Below are positions 11,097-17,465 of a DNA stretch of 64,000 nucleotides, one piece after another. Source of the DNA: Alphaproteobacteria bacterium HGW-Alphaproteobacteria-1 (GTDB taxonomy: Bacteria; Pseudomonadota; Alphaproteobacteria; Rhodobacterales; Rhodobacteraceae); the NCBI GenBank assembly GCA_002842985.1, contig PHEQ01000011.1:1-64000 (forward strand), written 5' to 3'. The number at the start of each line of letters is the position of its first letter. The first letter of the stretch is position 1. A program made the position numbers and the translations under genes. Under the pieces are notes generated by a model. That model was not told the origin of the DNA, ran no database searches, and saw only the letters and a program-made list of their open reading frames with translations.

Positions 11097-11522
11097 TCAG
11101 CGCGCCGAGAGGCCGATCTCGTCGCCCATGGCGACCATGTCAGCCAGAAGCTTGGCCGCATCATCGACAAGGCCCGCCTCGCCCGACTGGCTCTCTTGTG
11201 CATGAGCCAGACGGTCGGTCGCCTCGTCCACCATCGCCTTGAAGGTTTCTGCCGTCATGTCGGCACGTGCAAGGGCACGTTCGGCGAGCACCGATACACC
11301 CTGGGCGTTGATCTCGGCAAAGCCGCCGGTGACGACGAATTCCTGTGTGCCGCCATCCGCCGTGACACGGACGATGCCGGGGCGCAGCGTGGTGATGAGC
11401 GGGGCGTGATCGGCCATCGCCGTCAGATCGCCCTCGGCCCCCGGAATCTGGACCTCGCGCGCAGCGACCGAGGCGAGAAGGCGCTCGGGGCTCACCAGAT
11501 CGAATTGAACTGTCTCAGCCAT
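11097..11522 (-). CDS. atpC: F1 ATP synthase subunit epsilon
   Basis: The epsilon subunit of the F1 central stalk, coupling rotation to catalysis and able to inhibit ATP hydrolysis. The N-terminal beta-sandwich is clear: [12 protein letters not shown], then [17 protein letters not shown] and LRPGIVRV. The C-terminal helical part is present, with [14 protein letters not shown]. The 141 aa length is normal. It is the last gene of atpHAGDC and is followed by a strong terminator; a 50-bp gap separates it from atpD. Confidence 0.95.
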
Positions 11523-11572
11523 TCAGGCCTCCTTTACAGGTGTGGGGCGGGCCGCCGGCCCGCCGCAGTGGC

Positions 11573-13015
<1,443 letters not shown>

Positions 13016-13891
13016 TTACAGCGCCTCGGCGCCGGAAATGATTTCAATCAGCTCGTTGGTGATCACGGCCTGACGCGAGCGGTTGTATTCGATGGTCAGC
13101 TTGTCGATCATCTCGCCCGCGTTACGGGTGGCGTTGTCCATGGCGGACATGCGCGCCCCCTGCTCCGAGGCCCCGTTTTCCAGCAATGCGCTGAAGATCT
13201 GCGTGGCCACACCGCGCGGCAGAAGATCGGCAAGGATCGCCTGCTCGTCGGGCTCGTAATCGTAGAAGCTGTCGGTATCCGTTGCCTCGGCCTCGCCCAC
13301 ATCGGCGGGAATGACCTGCTGCATCGTCGGGATCTGGCTTACCACGTTTTCGAACCGGGCGAAGAAAATCTTTGCCACGTCGAACTCGCCCGCATCGAAC
13401 CGCTTGAGCACCTTGGCCGCGACCGTCTGCGCCTCGGCATAGCCGATGCGCTTGACCTCCGAGAGATCCACATGCTCGATGAAATAGGCGCCGAAATCGC
13501 GCCGCATCGCATCGCGGCCCTTCTTGCCGACGGTGATGATCTTGACCGTCTTGCCCTGCCCAAGCAGCTTGGTTGCTTCCGCCTTGGCGCGCTTGGCGAT
13601 GTTGGCGTTGAAGCCGCCGCACAGTCCACGCTCGGCGGTCAGCACCACCAGAAGATGCACCTTGTCCGCGCCGGTCCCGGCCAGAAGGCGCGGCGCGTTC
13701 TCGGCATCGCCCACGGAGGCGGCAAGCTTGGCCATCACCGCGTTGAAGCGTTCGGTGTAAGGCCGCGACATTTCCGCAGCCTCCTGCGCGCGGCGAAGTT
13801 TCGCCGCGGCGACCATCTGCATGGCCTTCGTGATCTTGCGGGTCGATTTGACCGACGAGATCCGGTTTTTCAGGTCCTTGAGATTCGGCAT
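13016..13891 (-). CDS. atpG: F1 ATP synthase subunit gamma
   Basis: The rotor shaft of F1, made of N- and C-terminal coiled helices. The start [25 protein letters not shown], the [10 protein letters not shown] segment and the C-terminal [24 protein letters not shown] are the conserved gamma signatures. The 291-aa length fits. A mid-protein insertion rich in acidic residues ([19 protein letters not shown]) is seen in related alphaproteobacterial gammas. It is separated from atpA by 15 bp and from atpD by 18 bp. Confidence 0.97.
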
Positions 13892-13906
13892 TGCCTTATC
13901 TCCCCC

Positions 13907-15445
<1,539 letters not shown>

Positions 15446-15986
15446 TTATCCGACCTCTTTCATTGCATTCTGGAGGGAGTCGAGCCGCGAGCGGATCGAG
15501 GTGTCGATCATCTTCGAGCCCACTTTGACGACAAGACCGCCGATGAGGCTTTCATCAACGGTCGTTTTCAGTTTCACGTCGCGCCCGATGCGCGCCTTGA
15601 GGGTTTTGGCAAGCGTGTCGGCCTGCGCCTTCGTGAGCGCCTTGGCGGAGGTCACTTCCCGCGGCAATCATGTCGCCAAGCTGCGCCACGAGTTGCGGCA
15701 GCACGAAGAGGCGGCGCTTGGCGGCCATGAGGGCAAGACCGTTGCGCAGTTCCGGCACGAGACCCATCTTGTCGGCGATGGCCGCAATGGCCGAGCCCTG
15801 CACCTCACGGCTGAGCACCGGCGAGGCGATGAGGGCGCGCAGGTCGGCGCTTGTGTCAAGTGCTGCGGACATGTCATCAAGGTTGCCCTCAAGCTTGGCA
15901 AGCGCTTTGCTCTCACGGGCAAGCTCGAATATGGCAGTGGCATAGCGCGCGGCGATGCCGGAAGAAATCGAAGCTGGTTCGGACAC
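15446..15986 (-). pseudogene. atpH: F1 ATP synthase subunit delta, split by a frameshift
   Basis: The delta subunit (OSCP) joins F1 to the peripheral stalk. The sequence encodes an N-terminal half from a GTG at 15986 ([20 protein letters not shown], with GGAAGG six bases upstream) through [11 protein letters not shown], about 109 aa. The reading then continues in the +1 frame with [20 protein letters not shown] to the normal C-terminus NAMKEVG, about 71 aa. The junction is around 15660-15670. Together the parts give about 180 residues against about 186 expected, so a small deletion that also shifts the frame fits. An assembly or sequencing error is likely, because this subunit is normally essential; a genuine frameshift cannot be excluded. 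Confidence 0.85.
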
Positions 15987-16137
15987 GTCCACCCTTCCGA
16001 TAATCTGGCCCCGGTTCGCGATGCGTGACGAAAGGCCACGACCGGGGACTTTGGTTTGCGATGCGCCTCGCGGAACAACGAAATTCGGCTGGGGTGTAGC
16101 AGAGGCTTTGGGATCGGGCAAGCGGCTTGGAAAGCAA

Positions 16138-16315: not shown

Positions 16316-16362
16316 CGCGAAATCTTGAAAAGATTTCGCGCCGATTTCTTTTCAAGAAATCG
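16316..16362. repeat. Tandem AT-rich hairpins downstream of prs
   Basis: Two perfect palindromes lie back to back. CGCGAAATCTT-GAA-AAGATTTCGCG spans 16316-16340 and CGATTTCTT-TTC-AAGAAATCG spans 16342-16362. The two share a related GAAATCTT/AAGAAATC core. They lie 90-130 bp past the prs stop and could act as a terminator, but no U-tract follows either one. I suspect a family-specific intergenic repeat; this needs a genome-wide count. Confidence 0.6.
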
Positions 16363-16448: not shown

Positions 16449-17465
16449 TCAGTGAATGAACCGGCCCTCGTAGATCGGCTCAAGGCTGTCGGCTTCGAAC
16501 AGCGACGAAACGCTGGTGCCGTTCCATATGTTGAGGATCGCCTGGGCAAAGATCGGTGCAGTCGGGATGATGCGGATATTTGGCGTGGCCTTGACCTCTT
16601 CGGTCGGCTGGATCGTGTCGGTGATGACCATGGATTTCAGCACCGACCCCGTGATCCGCTCGACCGCCGGGCCGGACATGACGCCATGGGTGGTATAGGC
16701 GTGGACCTCGCGCGCGCCGTTCTCGAGCAGGACCTCGGCGGCCTTGCACATGGTACCCGCCGTGTCGCACATGTCATCGACGATGATGCAGATCTTGTCG
16801 GTCACCTCGCCGATCACGGTCATCTCGGCGATCTCACCGGGCTTCTCGCGGCGCTTGTCGACGATCGAGAGCGGCGCGTTGATCCGCTTGGCCAGCTCGC
16901 GCGCCCGCGCCACGCCGCCCACGTCCGGCGAGACGATCATCACGTCGCCGATGGACGCGCCGAACTGGGCCTTGATGTCGAGCGCGAAGATGGGCGAGGC
17001 ATAGAGGTTGTCCACCGGAATATCGAAAAAGCCCTGAATCTGCGCGGCGTGAAGATCCATGGTCAGGACCCGCTCGATGCCCGCTTCGACAATCATGTTG
17101 GCAACCAGCTTGGCGGAGATCGGCGTGCGCGCCTTGGTGCGGCGGTCCTGGCGGGCATAGCCGAAATAGGGGATCACGGCAGTGATTCGCCGTGCCGAGG
17201 ACCGCCGCAGCGTGTCGGCCATGATCAGAAGTTCGATCAGGTTGTCATTCGCCGGCTTCGAGGTCGGCTGGATGATGAACATGTCCTCGCCGCGCACGTT
17301 CTCGAAGATTTCGACAAAGATTTCCTGATCGTTGAAGCGTTCGATGCGCGCATCGACAAGCCCCACGCTCATGCCGCGATGCACGGACATGCGGCGCGCG
17401 ATGGCCTTGGAAAGCGGCATGTTGGCATTGCCCGAAATCAGCTTCGGTTCGTCATTGGCGGCCAT
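16449..17465 (-). CDS. prs: Ribose-phosphate pyrophosphokinase (PRPP synthase)
   Basis: It makes PRPP from ribose-5-phosphate and ATP, feeding nucleotide, histidine and tryptophan synthesis. Recognisable segments are [35 protein letters not shown] with the ATP-binding flexible loop, the metal-binding [12 protein letters not shown], and the PRPP loop [18 protein letters not shown]. At 338 aa it is slightly longer than the 315-aa enteric enzyme, as usual in this group. It is transcribed alone, divergent from the DsbA-like isomerase gene. Confidence 0.97.

Follow-up and report, generated by a model that had tools for sequence, protein, structure and literature searches.

A 20-base gap breaks the reading frame of atpH in the ATP synthase operon of a Roseovarius-group genome

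The F1 operon and the atpH locus

The window, a stretch of 64,000 nucleotides, comes from a genome that belongs to the Roseovarius group of marine bacteria. On its minus strand it encodes an F1 operon in the order atpH-atpA-atpG-atpD-atpC, with prs (16449-17465) upstream of it (Table 1). The atpH locus (minus strand, 15992 to 15446) lacks a single uninterrupted reading frame for the delta/OSCP subunit (PF00213). In a profile search, the Pfam OSCP family matches it in two minus-strand pieces that are in different frames. Both pieces score above the curated cut-off, and nearly the whole 172-position profile is covered (1-98 plus 106-172). The first frame (frame A) opens with a GTG start at 15992 and stops at 15555-15557, and the second (frame B), which is +1 relative to frame A, ends with a TAA at 15446-15448, immediately ahead of the atpA start codon (ATG, 15445). 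Read along the minus strand, the junction is ATTGCCGCGG followed by GAAGTGACC, which places the confirmed frame break between 15658 and 15659 of the plus strand, with one base ambiguous. A ribosome that does not shift would make a product of 145 residues, the last ~34 of which are unrelated. Chance is of no concern for this break because it disrupts a conserved gene, not a weak motif.

Table 1. Positions of the F1 operon genes, the two parts of atpH and the matches to the OSCP profile
Feature	Positions	Strand	Description
atpH 5' part, frame A	15659..15992	minus	codons 1-111 (...QLGDMIAA); OSCP 1-98; collinear with intact relative L034
OSCP profile 1-98	15660-15956	minus	N-terminal domain
atpH junction	15658..15659	minus	net 20-nt deletion versus relatives, +1 frame change; alignment gap, genus-wide span excess
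Out-of-frame tail of frame A	15555..15658	minus	~34 residues (...ETENDR); premature stop 15555-15557
OSCP profile about 105-172 (start at 105 or 106)	15461-15661	minus	C-terminal domain
atpH 3' part, frame B	15446..15658	minus	70 codons (...NAMKEVG); C-terminal domain and signature; OSCP 106-172; conserved residues
atpA	13907..15445	minus	alpha subunit; intact, 512 aa
atpG	13016..13891	minus	gamma subunit; intact, 291 aa
atpD	11573..12997	minus	beta subunit; intact, 474 aa
atpC	11097..11522	minus	epsilon subunit; intact ORF, 141 aa; name based on position and sequence

A preliminary description of this DNA had proposed that the N- and C-terminal domains of atpH lie in frames offset by +1 within an otherwise complete atpHAGDC operon. 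The two OSCP pieces in frames A and B confirm the offset, and the intact atpA, atpG, atpD and atpC agree with the remainder of that claim. The Fo genes, on contig C18, also have intact open frames, and a sign of decay was found in none of the other atp genes (atpA, atpG, atpD, atpC and the Fo genes). The genome searched is a draft of 4.02 Mb in 85 contigs that is 96.6% complete. A whole-genome OSCP search for a second atpH gave no other match, and a second F-type ATP synthase was rejected because the genome has only one subunit a gene (atpB). The break thus hits the sole delta gene of the sole F-type ATP synthase in the assembly.

Two further features adjoin these genes. Between atpH and prs there are two adjacent perfect hairpins (16316-16362; CGCGAAATCTT-gaa-AAGATTTCGCG and CGATTTCTT-ttc-AAGAAATCG). 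The palindrome of the first occurs at seven places in the genome, with none for a reversed-pattern control, and we read it as a small dispersed palindromic repeat or a shared terminator. On the plus strand, an open frame of 1396 codons (11540-15730) lies antisense to all of atpD, atpG and atpA and reaches into atpH. Relatives have long antisense open frames at the same place, and the frame probably arises as a side effect of GC-rich codon usage.

The locus in relatives and selection on its two halves

The genus was placed through two relatives whose alignments are identical to those of Roseovarius gaetbuli and R. pacificus, respectively. The closest relatives are 84-86% identical in DNA over the region, and alignment with them shows a single 20-base gap at 15658/15659. 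The gap site corresponds to the short linker between the two delta domains, where relatives carry, for example, ACAAGGGCGAGGTCAGCGCC. The lesion had been anticipated at this position as a loss of 6-8 residues, a deletion of about 20 nt rather than a single-base error, and alignment with close relatives had been suggested as a check; that alignment bears out both the place and the size, with an intact gene in the relatives and the 20 bases absent only here.

The missing bases are present in ~80 genomes of the same genus, and in the genus genomes with match coordinates checked the target is longer than the query by 19-21 bases. In the profile check, each of the 35 same-genus relatives gave a single OSCP match that spans the full profile (1-172) in one stop-free frame. 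When the relative is more distant, BLAST sometimes divides the 20 bases into 8 + 12, because the relatives carry an imperfect 12-bp tandem repeat in their linker (GGC GAA GTG ACC / GCC GAA GTG ACC in many of them). A shared ancestral lesion is ruled out, since every relative examined has the gene intact. The lesion is therefore confined to this genome, and its most likely source is an error of sequence or assembly, with a very recent mutation as the alternative, rather than a new biological device.

The signal of purifying selection on both halves of atpH is the same as in relatives. Compared with the intact relative L034, dN/dS is 0.095/0.557 for the N part and 0.026/0.243 for the C part, and the values are similar when intact relatives are compared with one another (e.g., 0.129/0.680 and 0.036/0.234). 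In the C-terminal part, 65-67 of the last 70 residues are identical to those of relatives. L034 is itself collinear over all 188 residues with the nearest solved chain, 5dn6_H of Paracoccus denitrificans. Normal purifying selection on both sides implies that the break either postdates the species or is not real; full maintenance of atpH either lasted until shortly before the break or continues today.

Origin of the gap

We lean towards the 20-base gap being a consensus error of the 85-contig draft, through local misassembly or a miscall, with atpH intact in the cell. The living cell would then carry an ordinary intact atpH and the gap would exist only in the consensus. This reading follows from the expectation that an F1Fo without delta would be uncoupled, from the essentiality of the ATP synthase in related bacteria and from the maintained appearance of both halves. 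Delta ties the b stalk to F1, and in E. coli the assembly of b2 with the other subunits depends on it (PMC6131620); Tn-seq classed the ATP synthase genes of the related Rhodobacter sphaeroides as essential (PMC5513736). The occurrence of the missing bases in ~80 genomes, the lack of a backup gene, the intact state of the other atp genes and the normal dN/dS all support an error. Against it stand a clean loss of 20 bases outside a homopolymer or long repeat, which is not the commonest type of sequencing error, and the apparently clean state of the rest of the assembly. In a survey of ~166 genes (159 kb compared, within 618 kb of the genome; tblastn against relatives with a coding filter) we found six candidate frame changes, and only that in atpH joins two pieces of one real gene. 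The other five were judged from ORF position and codon-position GC to be open frames that run into intergenic DNA or lie antisense to real genes. With no other convincing frame break in these genes, the assembly is not generally error-rich. The atpH break therefore stands alone, and this weighs either not at all or mildly against an artefact.

The few other frame breaks and the clean nature of the event are instead consistent with a real, recent 20-bp deletion in the strain or the sequenced culture, which we regard as the second most likely reading and which would probably be very deleterious. The cell would make the N-terminal domain with the 34-residue out-of-frame tail and lose the C-terminal domain, which docks on the b/b' stalk. 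F1 would not be held to Fo and oxidative phosphorylation would fail, so that the cells would depend on substrate-level phosphorylation or represent a minority selected in culture. The imperfect 12-bp tandem repeat of the relatives at this site makes replication slippage plausible, and according to a metabolic model R. sphaeroides would grow slowly if it lacked ATP synthase (PMC5513736), but by experiment the genes of that organism are essential (PMC5513736). A mild effect in air upon knockdown of the atp genes in Zymomonas (PMC10746277) indicates that atp essentiality is not universal among alphaproteobacteria. A real deletion is also at odds with the lack of decay in the other atp genes and with the absence of a similar loss from every relative examined.

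It is very improbable that the gap is real and delta is still made, either by a ribosomal +1 shift at GCG-GGA or as two separately started fragments split at the domain boundary. The break does lie where one folded domain of delta gives way to the other, and a TTG and a GTG are present in frame B at the junction, but no clear Shine-Dalgarno sequence was seen before these starts. A hypothetical +1 shift would fuse IAA to EVTSAKAL and give a product seven residues short at a spacing that is effectively invariant: from RRLF in the N-domain to DESL of the C-terminal signature (DESLIGG) there are 60 residues in 97 distinct relatives (a few values of 59 and 66 stem from the anchoring of the search pattern) and 53 here if the junction is bridged. 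We found no slippery run or nearby stop in the junction sequence, and its predicted RNA fold is no better than that of shuffles (z = 0.14). A programmed frameshift gene was accordingly rejected, as the break occurs in no relative and has neither a slippery site nor a stimulator. One fused product, which the preliminary description had raised as a possibility, is therefore unlikely.

Consequences and comparison with known systems

If the gap is an error, as we favour, it matters only for annotation: automated pipelines will label atpH a pseudogene and may count an essential gene among the missing ones. A true deletion would be a natural test of the life of an aerobic marine alphaproteobacterium without a coupled ATP synthase.

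In support of an error, frame breaks of this origin are well documented among deposited bacterial genomes; in Vibrio fischeri, 75 of 82 suspect loci were errors, mostly frameshifts (PMC2330054). As in the error frameshifts of strain ES114 (PMC2330054), a gene is split here into two adjacent ORFs that match one full-length homologue, whereas atpH shows a net loss of 20 bases, not of one base. Compared with the ATP synthase delta/OSCP subunit (PF00213), atpH lacks 20 inter-domain bases and its frame is broken, but both domains are present in order and in the usual place before atpA.
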